Of a stretch of 64,000 nucleotides of DNA, positions 194-16,583 are shown one piece after another (the stretch's first letter is position 1; each line of letters starts with the position of its first letter). Below the pieces are notes generated by a model that made no database searches, had not been told where the DNA came from, and saw nothing but the letters and a program-made list of their open reading frames with translations. A program made the position numbers and the translations under genes. The stretch is from Chryseobacterium sp. (GTDB lineage: Bacteria > Bacteroidota > Bacteroidia > Flavobacteriales > Weeksellaceae). The stretch lies in the NCBI RefSeq assembly GCF_019236175.1, contig NZ_JAFAJM010000014.1, forward strand, positions 310,001 to 374,000. The letters are read 5' to 3'.

Positions 194-932
194 ACATTTT
201 CTGAATAGAATGATTCATTGTTTTATAAATTTCAAGACTTTCGCCTTTTAATAACTGTTCATGCAATTGTAAAATCCTTATGTCGTTTCTTACGGCCGGA
301 CCTGTTTGTGCCATTTTAGGCTCTATTTCATAGATCTTCTGTACGGTCTCATTAACCAGCGGTAAAAAATAATCAAACGGAATCTCCTGAGAATCAGAAA
401 TTTCTTTTGCTCTTGAAAAAAGATGATTGACAAAATTACACGCAAAAACAGCTGTTAAATGAATATATTTTCTCTTTTCATAAGTACTTTCCATTACATT
501 TTCTGAGATCTTGGAAGCGATTTCAAAAAGAAGGTCACGGTCTTCATTATTTTCTGCTTCAATGAAAAACGGAATTTTCTCATATTCCAGATCTTTGGAC
601 TTTGAGAAAGTCTGCAACGGATAAAAACTTGCCTTTCTGTACGCTCCGGAAAGAATTTCTTTAGGTAACGATCCTGAAGTATGAACAACAAGACTTTCTT
701 TTTTAGTGATTATCTTAGAAACCTCTTCTACAGAATGATCACTTACACAGATGAGATAAAGGTCTGCATCTTCCAGCTGTTTTGAAGAATAAGGGATGTT
801 CAACTCCTCAGAAGTTTTCCTAAGCTCATTTTCATTTCTGCCAAAAATCTGAGCCAAAGAAATTCCTTTTAAAGTGAATGCTTTGGCCATATGATAGGCA
901 ACATTTCCGGAACCGATGATTACAATTTTCAT
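183..932 (-). CDS. Rossmann-like and DUF2520 domain-containing protein
   Basis: A 249-residue protein that begins MKIVIIGSGNVAYHMAKAF, a Rossmann dinucleotide-binding fingerprint (GxGNxA). It continues into the all-helical C-terminal part (FACNFVNHLF, region ~170-190) typical of DUF2520 proteins, which resemble ketopantoate reductase and F420-dependent NADP reductase. The biochemical role of the family is not established; an NAD(P)-dependent oxidoreductase is a reasonable guess. I chose the ATG at 932 rather than the longer frame to 1010 because the extra 26 residues are low-complexity and the Rossmann strand starts at this Met. A TATATTTG promoter element (minus strand, 944-937) lies only a few bases before the start, implying a very short or absent leader. 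Confidence 0.85.
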   Translation of the reverse strand: MKIVIIGSGNVAYHMAKAFTLKGISLAQIFGRNENELRKTSEELNIPYSSKQLEDADLYLICVSDHSVEEVSKIITKKESLVVHTSGSLPKEILSGAYRKASFYPLQTFSKSKDLEYEKIPFFIEAENNEDRDLLFEIASKISENVMESTYEKRKYIHLTAVFACNFVNHLFSRAKEISDSQEIPFDYFLPLVNETVQKIYEIEPKMAQTGPAVRNDIRILQLHEQLLKGESLEIYKTMNHSIQKMYEL

Positions 933-5790: not shown

Positions 5791-6543
5791 TTATTGTACC
5801 TGAATGTAGTTTCGCTGTTCTTTGACCGTATTTCTGTCATAATTCATCATAAATGGTTCAGAAGCAGTCCCTCCAAATGATATTTTAAATTTGCCTCGAT
5901 CTGCTCCCGTAAGATAATTAACTGAAAAGATCATGATTTCATCAGGTTCAAATTCCCAGTAATCCCTTTCCCATACGGCTCCGCAACTAAAGGCATTATC
6001 ATTCCATATCATCTGCCATTTATGCTGACTATTGAATATCGCAAGCGGAAGGTTTTTGAATTCCGGAAATATTAATTTCCGTTTGGAGATATTTTTGATA
6101 AAGACGGGAAAAGCTTTGTATTTTTTAATGACACCGATTTCTGAGTTGTAGGCATATTTAGGAATGGTATCCTTAGGTTTAATGATTATTTTTACATGAG
6201 CTTCCGATAAAGAATCAAAACGCACAGGTGTGTAAGAAAATTTCATTCTTTCAAAAGCGGGACGAAAATATTCCTTATGAAGGTTAAAATTTCTTTTGAT
6301 CTCTGTTCCAGGCGGCGGTGGCGGTGGTGCTACCATTGAATTATAATACTTTACTTCAACATTGGACGGGTCCTTGCCAATATATATTAATCCGGTTTCC
6401 GATTCTCCGATGCCTTCGTTAAACTTTTGAAAGCTTAGCTTTTCATTTTTTTTATAGTGTAAGGTAATAGTATCCGCAAAAGACGGTTCTTTTTTACAAG
6501 AGAACAGCCCAAGGATAAGAATAAGATAAAAAAGCTTTTTCAT
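5791..6543 (-). CDS. Lipoprotein of unknown function with a proline run
   Basis: A 250-residue lipoprotein: MKKLFYLILILGLFSCKK is a type II signal peptide with the lipobox Cys at residue 16. No known domain is recognised. A striking stretch of six prolines (APPPPPPG, near residues 72-79) lies in an otherwise beta-rich sequence. Such runs usually need EF-P to be translated without stalling. The C-terminal half (IMIFSVNYLTGADRGKFKISFGG) looks like an immunoglobulin-like or beta-sandwich fold, which is a guess. The gene is monocistronic and convergent with lepA. Confidence 0.7.
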   Translation of the reverse strand: MKKLFYLILILGLFSCKKEPSFADTITLHYKKNEKLSFQKFNEGIGESETGLIYIGKDPSNVEVKYYNSMVAPPPPPPGTEIKRNFNLHKEYFRPAFERMKFSYTPVRFDSLSEAHVKIIIKPKDTIPKYAYNSEIGVIKKYKAFPVFIKNISKRKLIFPEFKNLPLAIFNSQHKWQMIWNDNAFSCGAVWERDYWEFEPDEIMIFSVNYLTGADRGKFKISFGGTASEPFMMNYDRNTVKEQRNYIQVQ

Positions 6544-6606: not shown

Positions 6607-7302
6607 ATGGAATCTCCAAAAAAATTACAGGATATCAAAGTAGCGGTAGATGCCGTTATTTTCGGGTATTTCGATAAAAAAGACCTTCAAATTCTTCTCA
6701 TCAAAAGAAATATTGAACCCTTTAAAGGCGGATGGGCCCTTCCGGGAGGGCTGGTTCTGGATGATGAAAATCTTGACGATGCCGTAAAGAGAGAGCTTCA
6801 CGAAGAAGCAGGCATAAAGCCGGATTTTCTAGAACAGCTTTATACATTTGGTAATGTTGGTCGTGATCCGAGAAACAGGGTGGTTTCTGTAGCTTATTTG
6901 GGCCTTGTGAATCCTTCTTATCATGAGCTCTTTGCAGATTCTGATGCAGATGATGCACAGTGGTTTAGTGTGAATCAGCTTCCTTTAGTTGCTTTTGATC
7001 ACCAGAATATTATTGATATTGCTTTAAAAAGGCTTCGTACCAAGATTCAGTATCAGCCGATCGGATTTAATCTTCTGAATGAAGAATTTCCTTTTTCAGA
7101 TCTTGAAAACCTTTATAAAACCATTGTAGGACAGGAAATTGACCGAAGAAACTTCCGTAAAAAAATCATGAGCTACGGATTGCTTAATGAAACCAATAAC
7201 GTTAAAAAAGAGGGCAGTGGAAGACCGGGAAAACTCTTTACCTTCAACCAGGAAAAATATAAAGAACTGGAAGAACAGGGATTTTATTTTGAAATTAAAT
7301 AA
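6607..7302 (+). CDS. NrtR-type transcriptional regulator: NUDIX domain plus winged helix
   Basis: A 231-residue two-domain protein. Residues ~10-140 form a NUDIX domain with an intact box (G48, E54, R62, E63, E66, E67, G69, I70), so hydrolysis may be retained. Residues ~150-231 form the winged-helix domain typical of NrtR/AraR regulators, with the conserved segments IDRRNFRKKIMSYGLL and GSGRPGKLFTF. NrtR proteins regulate NAD metabolism and respond to ADP-ribose; Bacteroidetes relatives such as AraR respond to arabinose. Its promoter carries the same palindrome as the ADP-ribose cluster 7 kb downstream, which favours an NAD/ADP-ribose role. It is separated from that cluster by the RiPP genes. 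Confidence 0.88.
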   Translation: MESPKKLQDIKVAVDAVIFGYFDKKDLQILLIKRNIEPFKGGWALPGGLVLDDENLDDAVKRELHEEAGIKPDFLEQLYTFGNVGRDPRNRVVSVAYLGLVNPSYHELFADSDADDAQWFSVNQLPLVAFDHQNIIDIALKRLRTKIQYQPIGFNLLNEEFPFSDLENLYKTIVGQEIDRRNFRKKIMSYGLLNETNNVKKEGSGRPGKLFTFNQEKYKELEEQGFYFEIK

Positions 7303-7456: not shown

Positions 7457-7666
7457 ATGAAAAAATTAATGATCAAAAAGACGACAAAGTCTTTATCAGA
7501 ATCTTCAACTTTAAACAGAGGAACTTTGAAAAACTTTAAAGGAGGTTTAAAAGTCATAGAGGATCCAATCAGTGAAGGAGGATGTAACGCAGACGCTCTA
7601 TGTTCTTCAGGAAGATCAATCTGGAATAACTTCTCCGGAACTCCACACACAAACTGCTGCGCATAA
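7457..7666 (+). CDS. RiPP precursor peptide (double-glycine leader, LanB-associated)
   Basis: A 69-residue peptide. The N-terminal ~30 residues form a Lys/Ser/Thr-rich leader ending in LKNFKGG (Gly29-Gly30), the bacteriocin-type double-glycine signal. The remainder holds four cysteines (43, 49, 67, 68), several Ser/Thr (39, 50, 51, 54, 60, 62, 65) and a second GG directly before Cys43, so the core may begin at residue 31 or 43. The gene lies directly upstream of a thioredoxin-like gene, a VKOR gene and a LanB-type dehydratase. Lanthionine, dehydroamino acid or disulfide products are all possible. A hairpin at 7738-7770 separates it from the enzymes. No close named peptide is recognised. Confidence 0.8.
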   Translation: MKKLMIKKTTKSLSESSTLNRGTLKNFKGGLKVIEDPISEGGCNADALCSSGRSIWNNFSGTPHTNCCA

Positions 7667-7737
7667 GTAATTCATGTCGATGAGGAATATAATATCCTCA
7701 CCGAAGAAAGAATTCCTTATATAAGCATATGATCAAG

Positions 7738-7776
7738 ATAGGCTGCTGTATTTAATATAAGGCAGCCTATTTTATT
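7738..7776 (+). terminator. Hairpin (terminator or attenuator) between the precursor and the modification genes
   Basis: ATAGGCTGC (7738-7746) pairs perfectly with GCAGCCTAT (7762-7770) around a 15-base loop, followed by TTTATTTATT. Partial termination here would give more precursor mRNA than enzyme mRNA. A weaker hairpin, TGAGGA with TCCTCA (7681-7700), lies upstream. Confidence 0.65.
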
Positions 7777-7801
7777 TATTCGTTATTAATACATTCATGT
7801 T

Positions 7802-8956
7802 ATGAAAGTTTTTGCTCAACTTTGCATTTCAGTTTTTTCTCTGGCCAGCCCGTTCTTTATTTCACAAAACATCAGCATTAAAGGACATTCACAATATACA
7901 TTTCACCAATCCAAAATATATCTTGTTAATGCTTTTCACGACCGCTATTACGAAAAAGGGAAGCTTTTAGATTCCGCTTCGGTGGATCAGAAAGGAAATT
8001 TCCAGTTTAATGTTTCAGGCCTGAAAGAAGGAAGCCCGTATAAATTGATCGACAAGGATATCAAAGGTTACAGCGAAACACCTGTTTTTTTTATTTCTTC
8101 CAGAAATGTATCTGTTGATCTTTTCAAAATGGATTCCCTTCGGGTAAATGACAGCCGCCAGCTGCGCAGTGAAAAAAAAGACTTTGATCATTTTTTCAAG
8201 CCAGTCAGGGACAGATATCAGGATTTATATCAGGACGGCAATAAAGCAGTAGCTGAGTATGGAGGGATGGAAAAAATCCCCCGGGAATATTTCACTTCCT
8301 ATTATAAAATTCAGAATGAAATCATGGCTGATGAAAAGAAAATGCTTTCTGATTATGTAAAAGAATATTCCGGCTCAGGGATCGCTTTCTGGAAGTTTGT
8401 GGAAATGTTTCAGAAAAACCAGCTCAGTGTGCAGGAAGCCGGCTCGATATTAAGTTTTTTTTCACCTCTTATTAAAAAGACTTTTGCAGCCCGTGAAATA
8501 GCCGCTGAAATTCATCGGAAAAAAATATTCGCGATGGGGCAAACATTTCCGTTACCTTATGTCACTGATCTGGAGAAAAAAAAGGTAAACTTTAAAACCG
8601 GTCCGGATCAAAAATATACTCTGATTGAATTCTGGTTTAGCCACTGTCTGCCATGCAGACGTGATTTACCTGATTATATCAGGCTGTACCAAACTTTTGC
8701 CCCAAAAGGATTTACAATCATTAATATCGCTACAGACCGCACAAAAGACCTGCCTTATCTGCGAAAAACAATTAAAGATTTTAATATTCCCTGGGTTCAG
8801 TATCTGGATGAGAACGGGGATCAGGCCAAAGAATGGGGCATTAATTCTTTTCCGTCCAGCTTTTTACTGAACGATAAAAATGAGATCATTGGAATCAATC
8901 TTTCGGTTTCCGAATTGAATCATTTCCTGTTAAAAAATACAACCAAGAATGAGTAA
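7802..8956 (+). CDS. TlpA-like thioredoxin family protein of the RiPP locus
   Basis: A 384-residue protein with a signal peptide (residues 1-22), an N-terminal beta-rich DUF4369-like region (about 25-120), a helical linker, and a C-terminal TlpA/ResA-like thioredoxin domain whose redox motif is C282-L-P-C285 in the context FWFSHCLPCRRDLP. It is probably a periplasmic thiol:disulfide oxidoreductase. Its last 8 bases overlap the start of the VKOR gene, so it is translated with it. In a RiPP locus the likely job is keeping the cysteines of the peptide or of partner proteins in the right redox state; this is inferred from context. Confidence 0.85.
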   Translation: MKVFAQLCISVFSLASPFFISQNISIKGHSQYTFHQSKIYLVNAFHDRYYEKGKLLDSASVDQKGNFQFNVSGLKEGSPYKLIDKDIKGYSETPVFFISSRNVSVDLFKMDSLRVNDSRQLRSEKKDFDHFFKPVRDRYQDLYQDGNKAVAEYGGMEKIPREYFTSYYKIQNEIMADEKKMLSDYVKEYSGSGIAFWKFVEMFQKNQLSVQEAGSILSFFSPLIKKTFAAREIAAEIHRKKIFAMGQTFPLPYVTDLEKKKVNFKTGPDQKYTLIEFWFSHCLPCRRDLPDYIRLYQTFAPKGFTIINIATDRTKDLPYLRKTIKDFNIPWVQYLDENGDQAKEWGINSFPSSFLLNDKNEIIGINLSVSELNHFLLKNTTKNE

Positions 8957-10442
8957 TAATATTCGAATTCTCTATAAATACCTGAAAAATAAAAATATAG
9001 AGGTAGACTATCCCGACTTTGAAACATCCGTTAGTTCCCACCCTGATTATCCTGAAATTATATCTTATGTGGATGCCCTGAACATACTGAATATTAAATA
9101 TGATATGTACAGTTATGAAGAAGTAAAAGATCAGATCGACCCTAAAGACCTTGTCATCTTTTATGATGAATTAAGGGAACTGACATTTGAATACCATCCA
9201 AAAGACGATCTGGAAGAAGGCCTTGTTTTGATTGTTGAAGAGCTTCCGTTTAAGAAAGCAATCTTCAGGGCAGACCGGAAGATGATTGTTTATGTCGTTC
9301 TACTTTTGTTTCTTGGCTACCTGGAAACAATTTCCGGTTCGTGGAGTCTTTTGGTTCTTTTAATTTGTTCTTTTGCAGGAGTTTATGTCTCCTATAGCGG
9401 ACTTTCGATGGAGCTGGGAATAGAATCCGATTTCTCCAATAAATTCTGTTCTTCCAAAGAGGAAAAATCAAGTTGCAGCTCGGTGATCAATTCTGCAAAA
9501 AAGATCGATGTCAAGTTAGGGCATCTCAGTTTCTTCTTTTTTGTTTTCCAGGTTTTTTTACTGGGATTCAGTCTTGCAGTTCCGGAATATATGTATCTTT
9601 TTTTATTGGGATCACTGCTAAGTATACCGGTAACAGTCTATTCTTTATATTTCCAGTTTTTCGTGGAAAAGAAGTGGTGCACCATCTGTCTCTCAACGAT
9701 CGCTGTATTGTATATCCAGGTAGTGACCGGTTTTTTTGCTTACAAGGAACTGGCGGTTGAAATGAGTTTGAACAAGTTCTTATTGCTGGCCTTGATCGGT
9801 GCGGTATCTTATCTTGCCACCTCTTTTGTATCTTCCCAAACTGCTTTAGTGGAAAGACTGAAGACCACGAATACCGGGCTTATTAAGTTTTACCGGAATT
9901 ATGATTTGTTTAAATTTTCCCTGATTAAAAGCAAAAAAATTAATCTGGATACTGAAACAATGGGAGTAATGATCGGCGGGCAGCAGGAACATGATCAACC
10001 CGTGATCACCATGATCTCAAATCCTACCTGTAAATACTGTAAAGAAACGTATAGGACTCTATTGGATATTTATCGTGCTGATCCGGAAAGTATAGTGATC
10101 CAGATTGTTTTTTATGATAAGAATTTCATGCCGGAAAGCGAAGCAATGATCAGAAATATTTTTTACCATTATTTTCGTTCGGGCGGCCTTTCTACCCTGG
10201 AACTATTAGCTTACGATTTTGAATTTTTTAGAAAAAAACAGGAAATAGGGGATGACATACACTTGCTGATCGAAGAGCAGATCCAGAAACAAAACCGCTT
10301 CGGAATGACAGAGAATTTTGAATTTTCACCTACTTTACTCATCAACCAGTATGTGTTTCCGGAAAATTATTCAAGATCTCATATCAGGTATTTTATTCCT
10401 GATTTAATTAATGATATGCAAGAAACCAAAGTTTATGTCTGA
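8949..10442 (+). CDS. C39-like / vitamin K epoxide reductase / thioredoxin fusion protein
   Basis: A 497-residue membrane protein. Residues 1-105 resemble the C39 peptidase-like N-terminus common in Bacteroidota VKOR proteins, but no catalytic Cys is visible. Residues ~110-290 form a VKOR four- to five-helix bundle with the active-site motif C244-T-I-C247 and loop cysteines in FCSSKEEKSSCSS. Residues ~335-495 form a thioredoxin-like domain with C361-K-Y-C364. VKOR-Trx fusions oxidise exported proteins using quinone, replacing DsbB/DsbA. Overlaps of 8 bases with both neighbours show tight coupling with the TlpA-like and LanB genes. It may introduce disulfides into the Cys-rich peptide. Confidence 0.88.
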   Translation: MSNNIRILYKYLKNKNIEVDYPDFETSVSSHPDYPEIISYVDALNILNIKYDMYSYEEVKDQIDPKDLVIFYDELRELTFEYHPKDDLEEGLVLIVEELPFKKAIFRADRKMIVYVVLLLFLGYLETISGSWSLLVLLICSFAGVYVSYSGLSMELGIESDFSNKFCSSKEEKSSCSSVINSAKKIDVKLGHLSFFFFVFQVFLLGFSLAVPEYMYLFLLGSLLSIPVTVYSLYFQFFVEKKWCTICLSTIAVLYIQVVTGFFAYKELAVEMSLNKFLLLALIGAVSYLATSFVSSQTALVERLKTTNTGLIKFYRNYDLFKFSLIKSKKINLDTETMGVMIGGQQEHDQPVITMISNPTCKYCKETYRTLLDIYRADPESIVIQIVFYDKNFMPESEAMIRNIFYHYFRSGGLSTLELLAYDFEFFRKKQEIGDDIHLLIEEQIQKQNRFGMTENFEFSPTLLINQYVFPENYSRSHIRYFIPDLINDMQETKVYV

Positions 10443-13398
10443 CTCTCTTTTTTCTAAGGCAATTTTAAGAAGACCCTTGTTGGGTATTGATTTCTTTAAG
10501 TCGGCTTACCTTTCCAGTATGTCATTTAAAGATACATTTCAAAAGGTGTCCCACAATAGTCTTTTTATGGATTCTATAAAAATGGCCTCCGGTCATTTCT
10601 TTGAATTTCTGTTAGAATATGATCATAAGACAGCAGATAAAAAGAAAAATATTGAGTTTTCGTTCTATAAGTATTTTTCCAGGGCAGCCACCAGATCGGT
10701 ACCATTCGGGATGTTCTCGGGGATCGGACTGCTTGATCTTTGTCATAAAGAAATAAATACATCGGAAGGGTATACGGAGATCCGTGGGAAGATTAGCTAT
10801 TCGTATCTGGATCAGATTGTAAAAAGGGCTAACGAAAACAGAACCATCAGGATGAAGCTTAGCTATTCCCTTAATAATACCTTTTCAATTAATCAGAAAG
10901 GAGAAGCTGTTTATATTCAAAAAGACCTCCAGAGTGTTGCTAACGGATATATAAAAAACAGTGTTGAGAATGATGAGGTAATGAGTTCTATTTTTGAATT
11001 TTGTCAGAAAGAAAGATCTATGGCTGAGTTCATTCATTTTCTGACAGAGACTTTTAAGGTGACGGAAGATGAAGGGTTGGCATTTTTTGATGATTTGCTG
11101 GAGGAGTCCATTATTTTTTCTAATCTTAAGTACTCCAGTCTCGGAAGCCATTATCTTGCCAATGACGTATTGGAGCTTATTATTTCAGATGAGCTGAAAC
11201 AGGATGATCCTTCTCTTTATAAAGACCTTCTCGATATTTTTGAACTCCAAACCAAAGGACTGACCGGAAAGACTTTAGATCAGCAGATTCATTACGATCT
11301 TTATTTTCAGGGAGATCAAGGCATCAGCCCAAAAATAGCAACGGAGGTGGAAGATATTCTCCTGATTTATGAGAAATTATCGCAAAATTTTGATACCAAG
11401 CCGGCAGTATTCGAAATATTCATTGATGCTTTCATCAAAAAATATGGTGAAAGAGAAATTCCACTATTGGAGGTCTTGTCTCTTGATGATAGAGATAATA
11501 TCGGAATGACAGGCGGTTCACATCTGCAGCTCGGGAAATCTGAAAGCCTGATTCTGAAAAAAATGTTTGAAGGAGCCAGAGAAGGTAAAATAAAGATTGA
11601 TCTTGAAAAACAGGATCTGGTATCCTTCTCCGGAACCGTTCCGGATACCGGGACAAAATATTGTTCTGTTTCACTTTTTAATGATCATGACAGCAGTAAA
11701 AGGACCATCAGCATCAATTATCTTTCCTATGCTTCTCCGCTAAAGATACTGGGAAGATTTACCGCGGACAGGAAAATCAGAAATTTTGCAGATGAAATCC
11801 AGGAATATGAGAAGACCACACTGGGCCCCGATTTTATCTGGGCTGAAATAGAGCACCTTCCTACTCATCTTGCCGGTCAGATCGTACAACGGAATATTCA
11901 GTGTGAATACATTATCAGGTATCCCAATGACAGCCCGTCATACAGCCATCAGAAATATATTGACATTCATGATCTGTCGGTAAGTATTATCGATTCCCGG
12001 GTATATTTAAGAAGTAAAAAATACAACAAATATGTTATTCCGAGGTTCTCTGCCTTTTTTGATGCGAAACACCCGGTTAATAGCCCTATATTCAGTCTTT
12101 TACTCGATATAGGTGCTCAGTTTGATAACAAAGAAAAATCGGGTATACCCATCGATAAGGTAATGAAGATTTCCGGCTTTTTTCCGAGAATCTGCTACAG
12201 AAACCATATTTTAAAAAAAGCACACTGGAGGGTAGAGGCCAGTGAATTTTTCAAAAACAAAAACGAAAATCCTGAAGTCAGCATGCAATCCTATAAAAAG
12301 AATGCAGAAAGACTGGGTATCAATCCGTCATTCTGTATCGTGGAAGGAGAAAATGAGCTTTATATTAATGAGAACATTCCGGTTTCCATCGAATTATTTT
12401 TAAAAGAGCTTAAAAAGAAAGGCAGCTTAGTTCTTTGTGAAGTTCTTTATGATGAGTATATTCCTTTCAGTCTGAGCGGTGAAAAGGAAAAGGTGCTTTC
12501 AGAAATTATTTTTGCTTTTAAAAACAAAGCACTGGTATCCCACTCATCCCTGTCCATACCTGAAGATATAAAAGTTCCGGGAAAACTATTCCCTTTTATG
12601 GACGACTGTATTTATCTGAAGTTATTTATCAGTAAAAAAGATGCCGCCCCATTGATTTCGGATCTTATACCTTACCTGAATCAGCTGGCGGAGAATGGCA
12701 TACTGAGCCATTTTGTCTATCTGTATTATTACAGTCCTGATTTTCACATACGATTGAGGATTTTCTCTTCCAGGCCTATGGACGCTGTTCATGAACTGAG
12801 TGCCTTTCTGAAAGAAAAACAAAACGATATCGATCAAATTCAATATACTACTTATGACAGAGAAATGAGACGTTATTCAGGAGATCATATCCTGTTTTTT
12901 GAAAAACTACACCATCTCGACAGCCTGGTAGCACATCAGACGATAAAGGAAACGCTGGAAGGAAACGCTGAAGAGCTGTTCTTTTGTCTTAGAACTGCAT
13001 TATATTATATTGACAGTATGTATGACAGCTGGGAAGAGAAGATAAGCTATGTAAAGAAAATAAAGAATGCTTTCGGATCGGAGCTCAGAGCCGGTCCCGA
13101 TACCAGCCGTTATGTTCATAAGATCTTTTCAGAGAATAAAGAAAACATAGCGTTTATTTTAGAATCTGAATTTCCTGAAACGGATAGGATTCTGAAGGAA
13201 ATCAGACTACAGATCCGGACCGCACCGGTTTTCTGGACTGCAGATACAAAGGAAGCCCAGATCTTTAATCTGATTCATATGCATATAATGAGAATTGTAA
13301 AGCAGAATAACCGCTTCTTTGAATTTGTTTTATATTCTGTTTTGGAGAAAAAACTCAACGAAATCCTGTACCGAAGCCAGACAGTCGAAAAAAGCTGA
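10435..13398 (+). CDS. LanB-type lantibiotic dehydratase
   Basis: A 987-residue protein of full LanB length. The N-terminal part (residues ~1-690) is the glutamyl-tRNA-dependent dehydratase domain with the hallmark ATRSVPFGMFSG (near residues 85-96). The C-terminal part from about residue 720 is the thiopeptide-type/SpaB-C elimination domain (KLFISKKDAAPLI, YYSPDFHIRLRIF, MRRYSG). Such enzymes glutamylate and then dehydrate Ser/Thr in RiPP precursors. I chose the ATG at 10435 because it overlaps the upstream stop by 8 bases, exactly like the previous junction; the frame could extend to 10411. No LanC cyclase, LanT or LanP is seen nearby. Confidence 0.92.
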   Translation: MSDSLFSKAILRRPLLGIDFFKSAYLSSMSFKDTFQKVSHNSLFMDSIKMASGHFFEFLLEYDHKTADKKKNIEFSFYKYFSRAATRSVPFGMFSGIGLLDLCHKEINTSEGYTEIRGKISYSYLDQIVKRANENRTIRMKLSYSLNNTFSINQKGEAVYIQKDLQSVANGYIKNSVENDEVMSSIFEFCQKERSMAEFIHFLTETFKVTEDEGLAFFDDLLEESIIFSNLKYSSLGSHYLANDVLELIISDELKQDDPSLYKDLLDIFELQTKGLTGKTLDQQIHYDLYFQGDQGISPKIATEVEDILLIYEKLSQNFDTKPAVFEIFIDAFIKKYGEREIPLLEVLSLDDRDNIGMTGGSHLQLGKSESLILKKMFEGAREGKIKIDLEKQDLVSFSGTVPDTGTKYCSVSLFNDHDSSKRTISINYLSYASPLKILGRFTADRKIRNFADEIQEYEKTTLGPDFIWAEIEHLPTHLAGQIVQRNIQCEYIIRYPNDSPSYSHQKYIDIHDLSVSIIDSRVYLRSKKYNKYVIPRFSAFFDAKHPVNSPIFSLLLDIGAQFDNKEKSGIPIDKVMKISGFFPRICYRNHILKKAHWRVEASEFFKNKNENPEVSMQSYKKNAERLGINPSFCIVEGENELYINENIPVSIELFLKELKKKGSLVLCEVLYDEYIPFSLSGEKEKVLSEIIFAFKNKALVSHSSLSIPEDIKVPGKLFPFMDDCIYLKLFISKKDAAPLISDLIPYLNQLAENGILSHFVYLYYYSPDFHIRLRIFSSRPMDAVHELSAFLKEKQNDIDQIQYTTYDREMRRYSGDHILFFEKLHHLDSLVAHQTIKETLEGNAEELFFCLRTALYYIDSMYDSWEEKISYVKKIKNAFGSELRAGPDTSRYVHKIFSENKENIAFILESEFPETDRILKEIRLQIRTAPVFWTADTKEAQIFNLIHMHIMRIVKQNNRFFEFVLYSVLEKKLNEILYRSQTVEKS

Positions 13399-13408
13399 TC
13401 AGTATAAA

Positions 13409-13432
13409 AACGGACTTTAGTCCGTTTTTTTT
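13409..13432 (+). terminator. Rho-independent terminator of the RiPP operon
   Basis: ACGGAC (13410-13415) and GTCCGT (13420-13425) pair around a TTTA loop, flanked by A before and eight T after. Confidence 0.85.
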
Positions 13433-13505
13433 ATGGAATAATCCCGCCATAACCTGTTATTTGTAAAAACTTTATATCCTGTAAACCAGGTTTTTATATT
13501 TATTA

Positions 13506-13577: not shown

Positions 13578-14120
13578 ATGAAATACACCATACAAAATAT
13601 TAAAGACAGGTTTCAGAAGAAACAAAGGATAAAGTTTTTGTTTTTCTGGGGGCATACGGTTAAAGATGAAATCACCAAATCATGTTTTAGCCAATGGTTT
13701 ACAGGGAATTTTGAAGAGAACGGGATCGTTTATAAAACAGCAGAACATTATATGATGGCCGGTAAAGCAAGATTATTTAATGATCCTGAAACGCTGGAAA
13801 AAATACTGAAAGCAGCAAGTCCGAATCAGGTTAAAACTCTGGGAAGACAAGTAAAAAACTTTGACCCGAAACTTTGGAATGAGCACAAATATGAGATTGT
13901 AAAACAGGGAAATCTTTTGAAATTTTCACAGAACAAAAAGTATAAAGACTTTCTTTTGTCAACAGGAGAGAAAATCCTTGTAGAAGCCAGTCCATACGAT
14001 ACCATTTGGGGAATCGGAATGCTGGAAACAGATTCAAGAGCAGAAAATCCTTTATTATGGAACGGAGAAAACCTTTTAGGATTTGCTTTGATGGAAGTAA
14101 GAGATGAATTAAGAGGGTAA
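13578..14120 (+). CDS. NADAR family protein (YbiA-like, DUF1768)
   Basis: A 180-residue single-domain NADAR protein. Visible family features are FFWGH near the N-terminus, CFSQWF (residues 36-41), TAEHYMMAGKA (54-64) with the conserved Glu56, LGR-V (88-92) and EASPYDTIWGIG (136-147). YbiA/NADAR proteins act on N-glycosidic bonds in ADP-ribose-linked substrates; some have been reported to remove ADP-ribose from guanine. It is the first gene of a long co-directional block of ADP-ribose-related genes and has its own promoter flanked by two copies of the candidate NrtR operator. Confidence 0.93.
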   Translation: MKYTIQNIKDRFQKKQRIKFLFFWGHTVKDEITKSCFSQWFTGNFEENGIVYKTAEHYMMAGKARLFNDPETLEKILKAASPNQVKTLGRQVKNFDPKLWNEHKYEIVKQGNLLKFSQNKKYKDFLLSTGEKILVEASPYDTIWGIGMLETDSRAENPLLWNGENLLGFALMEVRDELRG

Positions 14121-14213
14121 AAACACAATAACCGGTCACAAAATAGCACTATGAAAAGGTAAGTCCTGATGAATATTAAATAATGTTTTGCAAAACTATG
14201 TCCTTTTCAATTA

Positions 14214-14228
14214 GCGTAATAATAACGC
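14214..14228 (+). promoter_or_regulatory. Candidate NrtR-type operator S3
   Basis: GCGTAATAATAACGC has perfect GCGT/ACGC arms and is the best palindrome of the four sites. It lies 17 bases before the ATG of the next gene. The bases before it (TCAATTAG, sharing the last G) are a degenerate -7 element in the same geometry as the other promoters. Confidence 0.6.
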
Positions 14229-14245
14229 AAAAAAAATAATCAGAT

Positions 14246-14581
14246 ATGGAAGATGAATTAAAACCAAGATTTATCGAGTCATTACAAAGAAATAATGATC
14301 AGATCAGAGAAGACCGTGCGCGAACGATCGGAGAAGATTCAGAGTTGATTTACAGGCGCAAGGTAGAAGACATCGGGTTAAGAATCAAAAGACTCGAGCG
14401 TGAACAGGAAGGACTTATTGATGTGAGTCCTTTGGACAGAAACAGTTTGACTTTTGCGGATTTTAATCCCGAAGCATTCGTTCAGAAGGACATGGAATTA
14501 TCATTAACTATCAGAAATCTGAATATTCAGTTAGGAGTTTCTCAAAAGAGATTTGAATATTTATTCGGCAAAACATTTTAA
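14246..14581 (+). CDS. Small coiled-coil protein in the ADP-ribose cluster
   Basis: A 111-residue protein, very rich in Arg, Glu and Asp, with predicted long helices (SELIYRRKVEDIGLRIKRLE, about residues 31-50, and MELSLTIRNLNIQLGVSQKR, about 82-101) and a short central region rich in Asp and Phe. I do not recognise the family. It starts 17 bases after operator S3 and ends 2 bases before the VWA gene, so the two products probably work together, perhaps as a structural partner. No signal peptide, so cytoplasmic. Confidence 0.7.
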   Translation: MEDELKPRFIESLQRNNDQIREDRARTIGEDSELIYRRKVEDIGLRIKRLEREQEGLIDVSPLDRNSLTFADFNPEAFVQKDMELSLTIRNLNIQLGVSQKRFEYLFGKTF

Positions 14582-14583
14582 TT

Positions 14584-15438
14584 ATGGGAGGTACAAGATA
14601 CGATATAGACGCTCGTTATAACAGAGCAAGCAGAGCAGGTTACGGAACAAAATCCGCAGGTGAAATTTTTACACAGAATGCCAAAAGACAGGCACATCCA
14701 TCAATGATTCCTCAAGGAATTTCTTTCAGGGAGTCCAGAGATTCTGAGGTACATCCCAATACAGTTCCTATTATTCTGGGATTGGACGTTACAGGAAGTA
14801 TGGGACATATTCCACATCAACTCATTAAAGAAGGCCTTCCTAAACTGATGGGTGGAATCATCCAGGGTGGCGTTCCTGATCCGGCATTGCTTTTTCTGGG
14901 AATAGGAGATCATGAATGTGACAATTATCCGTTACAGATAGGCCAGTTTGAGTCCGGAGATGAAGAACTGGATATGTGGCTTACCCGTACTTATATTGAA
15001 TCCGGAGGCGGTGGAAATGGAGGTGAGAGTTATCTATTAGCATGGTATTTTGCCGCCTTCCATACCAGAACAGATGCTTTTGAAAAAAGAAATCAGAAAG
15101 GGCTATTGTTTACCGTAGGTGACGAACCTTGCCTGAAAGTACTTTCGGCATCAGCCATCAGAGAAATCATGGGCTCAGGACAGCAAACCTATACTCACTT
15201 CGATCTGTTGGAAGAAGCTAAAAAGAAATACGAGGTATATCATATCAATGTTCTGCATTCTGATCAGGCGATAAGAGCAAATAGAGATTGGAAGGAATTA
15301 TTAGGAGAAAATTGTATATCCATACCAGACCATAGAGATATTCCGGAGGTGATCACAAAGATTATCTGCAATAAATGTAAAGATAAAACCTTTGGAACAC
15401 CAAACGTAGACGGGTTAGACAATATACAGATGCTGTAG
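14584..15438 (+). CDS. VWA-like protein with MIDAS motif
   Basis: A 284-residue protein with a Gly/Arg-rich N-terminus (GGTRYDIDARYNRASRAGYG) and a von Willebrand factor A-like domain from about residue 55. Its metal-ion-dependent adhesion site reads LDVTGSMG, a DxTxS variant of DxSxS, followed by the Gly-rich ESGGGGNGGES loop and a later GDEP. A C-terminal CNKC pair could bind metal. No signal peptide, so cytoplasmic. VWA proteins often scaffold or drive chaperone-like ATPase complexes, but no MoxR-type ATPase is seen nearby. Substrate and partner are unknown; operon membership ties it to ADP-ribose metabolism. Confidence 0.78.
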   Translation: MGGTRYDIDARYNRASRAGYGTKSAGEIFTQNAKRQAHPSMIPQGISFRESRDSEVHPNTVPIILGLDVTGSMGHIPHQLIKEGLPKLMGGIIQGGVPDPALLFLGIGDHECDNYPLQIGQFESGDEELDMWLTRTYIESGGGGNGGESYLLAWYFAAFHTRTDAFEKRNQKGLLFTVGDEPCLKVLSASAIREIMGSGQQTYTHFDLLEEAKKKYEVYHINVLHSDQAIRANRDWKELLGENCISIPDHRDIPEVITKIICNKCKDKTFGTPNVDGLDNIQML

Positions 15439-15482
15439 ATCACAAATTAGCCACAGCGGCAATAACTTTAAAAATACCAGAC

Positions 15483-16583
15483 ATGAAAAAGGCGCAAATT
15501 GTTATAGGACTAGGTTTCGGAGATGAAGGAAAAGGAATCACAACAGATTTTCTGGCTCAGCAAAATCCTGAGGCTGTAGTGATCAGATTCTCAGGAGGAC
15601 AGCAAGCGGCTCATACGGTAATGATTGATGACAGAAAACATGTTCATTCAAGTTTTGCCAGTGGAGCGCTTCGCGGATTACCTTCTTATTATACCGAACA
15701 TTGCACCATTCATCCCTTATTTCTATTCAATGAAAGGGAAGAATTAAAAGCAAAAAACGGAAATACAGAGCTTCATATTCATCCGTTAGCCAAGGTAACT
15801 ACGCCTTTTGATGTCTGGCAAAACAGAACCAGTTCCAAAAATCTGGAACATGGAACCTGTGGAAAAGGAGTAGGAGCTACCATGAAAAGAAATGAAAGCC
15901 CTTACAAACTATTTGCCATTGATCTTATTGCCCCAAAGGAAATGTTGATCGAAAAGCTGAAAGGAATTGCTTATTACTATGGTTTTATGGAAGAGGAGCA
16001 GATTAATGAGCAGATCATTCCTTTTTTAGAAGCTGTTGAAAAAATAGATTGGAAGATCGATGATTACAGTTATCTGAACTCATTTGAAAATCTCATTTTT
16101 GAGGGAAGTCAGGGGATTTTATTAGATATGGATCATGGTGTTTTTCCGAATGTAACATACGCTCATACAACTTCAAAAAATGCTTATGAGATCTGTAAAA
16201 AGCTCAATTTTGAAGATATTGAAATGTATTATGTAACCAGAAGCTATGCAACACGTCACGGAAATGGATGGATGAGCAATGAAAAAGAGCTGCATCTGAG
16301 AAATAATGTAGAAGAAACGTGTACCTTTAATGAATATCAGAAAGAACTGAGATTCGGAGGGTTAGATTATAAATTATTGAATTATGCTTTAAAATTGGAT
16401 GGAGCTTATATTACCCCAACAAAAAAGAACCTGGTGATAACCTGCCTGGATCAGATTGATGAGGAATTTAAACTTGATCAGCTTGAAATGAAATTTGACA
16501 GTATGTTTGGATCTTATTCTCCTTATTCAAAAGATTTTAGAGAATTGAAAATAGATTGTGAAGACCATGTGAAAATTAATTAA
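15483..16583 (+). CDS. Adenylosuccinate synthetase-like protein (divergent PurA paralogue)
   Basis: A 366-residue protein clearly related to PurA but about 60 residues shorter than usual (~425-430). The GTP-binding GFGDEGKG (residues 11-18, keeping the catalytic Asp14), GGQQAAHTV (catalytic His), GKGVGATMKR and EGSQGILLDMDHG can all be aligned with PurA, while GGNNAGHT is changed to GGQQAAHT and the C-terminal aspartate-binding part is altered. PurA joins IMP and aspartate; this paralogue may ligate an amino acid to another purine nucleotide. Its place inside an ADP-ribose cluster suggests a modified nucleotide substrate, which is speculation. It is unlikely to be the housekeeping PurA. Confidence 0.85.
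   Translation: MKKAQIVIGLGFGDEGKGITTDFLAQQNPEAVVIRFSGGQQAAHTVMIDDRKHVHSSFASGALRGLPSYYTEHCTIHPLFLFNEREELKAKNGNTELHIHPLAKVTTPFDVWQNRTSSKNLEHGTCGKGVGATMKRNESPYKLFAIDLIAPKEMLIEKLKGIAYYYGFMEEEQINEQIIPFLEAVEKIDWKIDDYSYLNSFENLIFEGSQGILLDMDHGVFPNVTYAHTTSKNAYEICKKLNFEDIEMYYVTRSYATRHGNGWMSNEKELHLRNNVEETCTFNEYQKELRFGGLDYKLLNYALKLDGAYITPTKKNLVITCLDQIDEEFKLDQLEMKFDSMFGSYSPYSKDFRELKIDCEDHVKIN

Follow-up and report, generated by a model that had tools for sequence, protein, structure and literature searches.

The locus described here raises the question of what is made by an operon that combines a full-length LanB dehydratase with a disulfide-forming VKOR fusion and has no LanC cyclase. It lies on contig C19 of a Chryseobacterium genome (G000; 4.75 Mb, 24 contigs), within a stretch of 64,000 nucleotides that is called the window below. 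Chances are somewhat better than even that this is a dedicated RiPP operon that arose when a pre-existing disulfide-peptide system gained a LanB, and whose product would carry dehydroalanines and disulfides and be exported in trans by a C39 transporter. The broader proposal, a distinct RiPP class in which a recruited LanB and a leader tag would yield LanB-made dehydroalanines beside enzyme-made disulfides and no lanthionine, stands at about even odds.

All four genes listed in a preliminary description of the window are present where it placed them (Table 1), and the three enzymes have Pfam support. The 69-residue double-glycine precursor with four Cys is confirmed at 7457..7666 and has a leader with GG and a Ser/Thr/Cys core with a conserved Cys set. 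The 8-base overlaps reported among the enzyme genes are also borne out: the TlpA/VKOR overlap is exactly 8 bases (8949-8956), and the VKOR/LanB overlap is exact with a LanB start at 10435 instead of the longest-ORF start at 10411. The former is most likely the true start because homologues start there.

Table 1. Features of the operon in window coordinates; the domains of the VKOR fusion are given in residues.
Feature	Position	Strand	Details
Precursor peptide gene	7457..7666	+	69 aa; leader end LKNFKGG; Cys43, 49, 67, 68 and Ser51, 54, 60 in core
Terminator-like hairpin in the precursor/enzyme gap	7735..7775	+	AGATAGGCTGC...GCAGCCTATTTT; z -4.35; T-rich stretch 3'
TlpA-like secreted thioredoxin-fold protein	7802..8956	+	WFSHCLPC motif; Pfam AhpC-TSA/Redoxin
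VKOR-DsbA fusion, membrane oxidoreductase	8949..10442	+	Pfam VKOR and weak thioredoxin
Domains of the VKOR fusion	residues about 1-100; about 130-270; about 316-497		N-terminal; VKOR; DsbA-type thioredoxin
Full-length LanB	10435..13398	+	987 aa from conserved start; Pfam Lant_dehydr_N and Lant_dehydr_C; glutamylation and elimination domains
Inverted repeat and T-run	13407..13435	+	AAAACGGACTTTAGTCCGTTTTTTTT; direct reading of sequence

The operon extends from about 7457 to 13435, because a hairpin lies between the precursor and TlpA genes and an inverted repeat with a T-run lies 3' of LanB. The gap between the precursor and the enzyme genes measures 135 bases and holds the terminator-like hairpin, which is probably an attenuator; AAGGCTG...CAGCCTT hairpins occupy the equivalent place in the related loci L044 and L046. 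The repeat behind LanB, absent from the pattern-scan matches and found by reading the sequence, is a probable operon terminator. A promoter-like TTG-N19-TAnnTTTG, resembling the Bacteroidota promoter consensus, precedes the precursor in L046 (about 6437-6475) and L044 (about 14350-14325) and is less clear in the window. The upstream neighbour of the operon is an NrtR-type Nudix regulator (window 6607-7302). Downstream (window 13578-16583) lie a NADAR protein with a PADLOC PDC-M42C match and then an adenylosuccinate-synthetase-like gene; the NADAR gene is probably separate from the operon. An anti-phage role of the operon was rejected, as TlpA, VKOR and LanB are all without a PADLOC match.

The same gene set recurs in other species. 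Among 148 Chryseobacterium genomes, LanB relatives at 50-52% identity are found only in G047, G146 and G127, the next best being 34% identical, and search scores exceed 1000 bits in the four carriers with the next at 438. Precursor matches at E < 1e-39 are confined to the same four of 173 genomes, and VKOR scores reach 930-1020 bits in the carriers and stay below 200 bits in every other genome. Precursor, VKOR and LanB co-occur in exactly four of the Chryseobacterium genomes searched, each a separate species, and an order-wide LanB search gained no fifth close member. One of the carriers, C. shigense DSM 17126 (G047), was the sole match in one contig scan. The order precursor, VKOR, LanB is the same in 4/4 carriers. 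TlpA is present in only two of the four loci (the window's genome and G047) and is therefore dispensable, which leaves precursor-VKOR-LanB as the core of the module.

The module occupies three different genomic sites across the four species and moves between sites that other clusters also use. Its site in G146 and G127 is the der-katG interval, which holds LanC-bearing lanthipeptide clusters in C. shigense and G036; this interval (L045, L046, L052, L147) is a hotspot of RiPP exchange. That unrelated genes became neighbours by chance is hardly credible. The 135 bases and hairpin that part the precursor from the enzyme genes would fit such an explanation, but it is refuted by the recurrence of the set in three other species and further opposed by its three genomic sites and the tight overlaps of the enzyme genes.

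LanB turns serine into reactive dehydroalanine. As in class I lanthipeptide synthesis, the LanB of the operon has full-length glutamylation and elimination domains and retains the catalytic residues: identical counterparts of the NisB glutamylation residues Y80, R83 and R87 and elimination residues R786, E823, R826 and H961 are found in 13/13 aligned LanBs. In NisB, mutation of Y80, R83, R87 or H961 stops or impairs dehydration (PMC4341554), and R786, R826 and H961 are needed for elimination (PMC4979651). This identity, together with about 50% conservation of LanB over four species, always in the operon, makes it improbable that the enzyme is no dehydratase and only glutamylates, ligates or chaperones a plain disulfide peptide. 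What favours that alternative, and counts against a product with dehydroalanine and disulfides, is that the window protein has V97 and S129 at the places of NisB T89 and D121, two positions of importance; I or S at these positions occurs also in LanC-bearing loci.

No LanC or C39 transporter is recognised at the locus, in line with the preliminary description, and none on contig C19. Elsewhere in the window's genome, the search that it proposed finds C39 ABCs on C5, C8, C10 and C24 and a single LanC, on C24, adjoining another LanB and another precursor. The LanCs of C. shigense likewise sit in other lanthipeptide clusters beside other LanBs. Neither G146 nor G127, the latter a single contig that is 99% complete, has a genome-wide match at E <= 0.1 to PF05147, a family that also spans the cyclase domains of classes II-IV, and a clustered LanC cyclase is found at none of the four module loci. 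A canonical class I lanthipeptide with LanC in trans is accordingly very unlikely: LanC genes do exist in the window's genome (C24) and C. shigense, but they adjoin other LanBs and precursors, and as a general rule this explanation is rejected by G127 and G146, which are without any LanC-like gene. A cyclase encoded elsewhere, the other option that had been raised, is thus not a general requirement.

Relatives of the module LanBs do have LanC. It is adjacent in all four sister loci (G122, G077, G052, G171; LanBs about 32% identical) and in all of the next ones out (G130, G087, G036, G110). In a quick tree, the four module LanBs group together as a single clade (support 100), whose sister is the G122 clade (99), within a 14-row clade whose other members have LanC. 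As the sister LanBs all have LanC, the module clade is a LanC-less offshoot. A LanC gene adjacent in related loci had been named beforehand as grounds for refutation; it is found for these cousins and for none of the four members. Among the genus LanB matches listed, LanC lies within about 15 kb of 56/70 full-length LanBs and near 8/69 split LanBs, and the four module LanBs are among the 14 full-length exceptions, as is a second clade unrelated to them. The module is thus not the only case of LanB without LanC in the genus; what is unique, in the genomes searched, is a LanB with its own VKOR.

The VKOR fusion is invariant at Cys167/176, 244/247 and 361/364 in 39 homologues. A structural model built from the alignment of these 39 sequences (pLDDT 82), which replaces a useless four-sequence model (pLDDT 39), predicts a VKOR fold and a DsbA-type thioredoxin fold. 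Its structural matches include Synechococcus VKOR 4nv2 (Z 12.2, rmsd 3.6 over 137 residues) and DsbA-family proteins, among them BdbD 3eu3 (Z 12.9, rmsd 3.3 over 155 residues). A search for a C39-like leader-binding domain in residues 1-100 gives weak PF03412 matches in 13/39 homologues (best E 0.003) and an hhalign probability of 0.7%. Most Chryseobacterium genomes have a distant paralogue of this VKOR. In the carriers and most other loci read, the paralogue, about 27% identical to the module VKOR, is accompanied by a C39-ABC transporter and by small GG peptides rich in Cys, and in most cases by HlyD as well.

The preliminary description missed that the precursor is one of a family of disulfide-type peptides that also occurs without LanB. 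Relatives without a LanB of the module clade are found at L154, L188, L189, L190, L191 and L192, and most of them adjoin a TlpA-like gene or the VKOR/C39-transporter locus of the genus. At L154 and L188, homologous core peptides lie within or next to a VKOR/C39-ABC/HlyD locus; a split LanB is near L188, and LanC and a split LanB are near L154. The TlpA-like proteins beside L189-L192 are 25-30% identical to that of the window, and their paired peptides are without LanB. As a side observation, each of these four loci is a two-gene unit of a Cys-rich GG peptide and a TlpA-like protein, with no LanB or exporter nearby.

All four Cys are kept in 10/10 aligned precursors (four LanB-linked, six LanB-free), which also share an invariant Gly and invariant segments of the leader. 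Within this small sample of four LanB-linked and six LanB-free peptides, Ser51 is present in 4/4 against 1/6 (the LanB-free copy being L192) and Ser60 in 4/4 against 0/6, the latter column depending on gap placement, while Ser54 does not separate the groups. An N-terminal leader extension of ~13 residues also marks the LanB-linked precursors and bears a weak resemblance (p about 0.02-0.09) to the leader found in the lanthipeptide cluster of the sister clade (KKLTI.KK). Because the Cys are kept with or without LanB and Ser51, Ser60 and the leader extension are LanB-linked, the best reading of these sequences is that a disulfide-peptide system later gained LanB and a putative LanB-binding leader segment.

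The same alignment bears on the main rival, a lanthipeptide made independently of LanC, in which Cys would add to dehydroalanine spontaneously or via an unrecognised enzyme (e.g. Dha60-Cys67), and VKOR and TlpA would only oxidise leftover Cys or control redox. When dehydroalanine and Cys share a cytosolic peptide, they can form a ring with no enzyme, which counts against coexisting dehydroalanine and disulfides; Cys67/68 come 7-17 residues after Ser51/54/60, so that Ser stands before Cys as is usual; and many lanthipeptide clusters occur in the genus. Thioethers, however, leave unexplained why all four Cys are kept in LanB-free relatives, and the sister LanB clade retains LanC, so rings normally need it. 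Non-enzymatic thioether formation is accordingly judged unlikely.

In the favoured and most economical pathway of dehydroalanines and disulfides, where dehydration, the choice of serines, the disulfide pairing, the choice of exporter and the absence of thioether rings are all putative, a leader-guided LanB would dehydrate core serines to dehydroalanine in the cytosol, the best candidates being Ser51, Ser60 and Ser54. A C39 transporter would then export the precursor and cut it at GG. The operon has no exporter gene, which counts against this reading, and a C39 peptidase-ABC transporter is found only elsewhere in 4/4 carrier genomes. An exporter encoded elsewhere, as had been suggested, is likely: the VKOR/C39-ABC/HlyD locus is conserved in all four, and its C39-ABC/HlyD pair would most likely serve. 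After export to the periplasm, the four Cys would be joined as two disulfides by the VKOR-DsbA fusion, with help from TlpA in the carriers that have it; LanC would not be needed because the Cys serve disulfides and not thioethers. The combination of dehydroamino acids and disulfides without LanC first put forward thus remains the best-fitting reading, given G127 and G146, and the cyclase in trans falls away as a rule.

Each component has known counterparts. Thiopeptide-type dehydratases and PEARLs are LanB-like enzymes that, like the module, work without LanC, by dehydration or tRNA chemistry. Thiopeptide systems differ in that no YcaO cyclodehydratase or pyridine synthase is recognised by Pfam/NCBIfam among the operon proteins beyond the thiopep_ocin domain of LanB, and PEARLs differ in that the window LanB has an elimination domain (Lant_dehydr_C, E 1.3e-27). 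The core VKOR-DsbA/C39-ABC/HlyD locus shares a paralogous VKOR fusion and a related GG leader, but has no dedicated LanB of the module clade and its peptide is without the leader extension. Class I lanthipeptides (nisin NisA/B/C; Chryseobacterium OV715 ChmABC, a system able to dehydrate its own precursor in E. coli; PMC9993889) share the GG-leader precursor with Ser and Cys and a full-length LanB with the NisB catalytic residues, and cousin LanBs are in LanC-bearing clusters; the module differs in that LanC is missing from its cluster, and from two of the carrier genomes altogether, and in its clustered disulfide-forming enzymes and lack of a clustered exporter. Bacteroidetocins, also from Bacteroidota, set a precedent: they are four-Cys peptides with a GG leader that depend for activity on a thiol oxidoreductase from the same cluster (PMC6671954), and such an enzyme is present in the operon; they differ in having a clustered C39 ABC transporter and no LanB.

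The components are known; what is new is how they are combined and where the combination evidently came from. The preliminary description did not recognise the combination as characterised, and the literature searched, largely outside subscription papers, holds no description of a LanB that has its own VKOR but lacks LanC. Such clusters escape genome mining that is anchored on LanC, as in PMC7268733. If dehydroalanine and disulfides do coexist, the cell must prevent thiol addition to dehydroalanine, and this specificity is directly testable with the matched natural peptides that exist with and without LanB. The proposed origin, if true, would show modular assembly of RiPP pathways with natural intermediates still in the genus.

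Other LanB loci of the genus were also noted. Split LanB clusters occur genus-wide (L054 and L055 on C13 and C12 of the window's genome, L149, L153, L156 and others). They include a prolyl oligopeptidase (S9) and an AraC/TPR regulator, and their precursors have few Cys or none; where these are Cys-free, no lanthionine is therefore possible within the peptide. Such clusters are mostly without LanC, and often the core VKOR/C39 locus is 5-10 kb away. L056, L026 and L028 belong to the other clade of full-length LanBs that lack LanC, which is unrelated to the module clade; the L056 copy, on C5 of the window's genome, adjoins a C39 ABC and an apparent response regulator.
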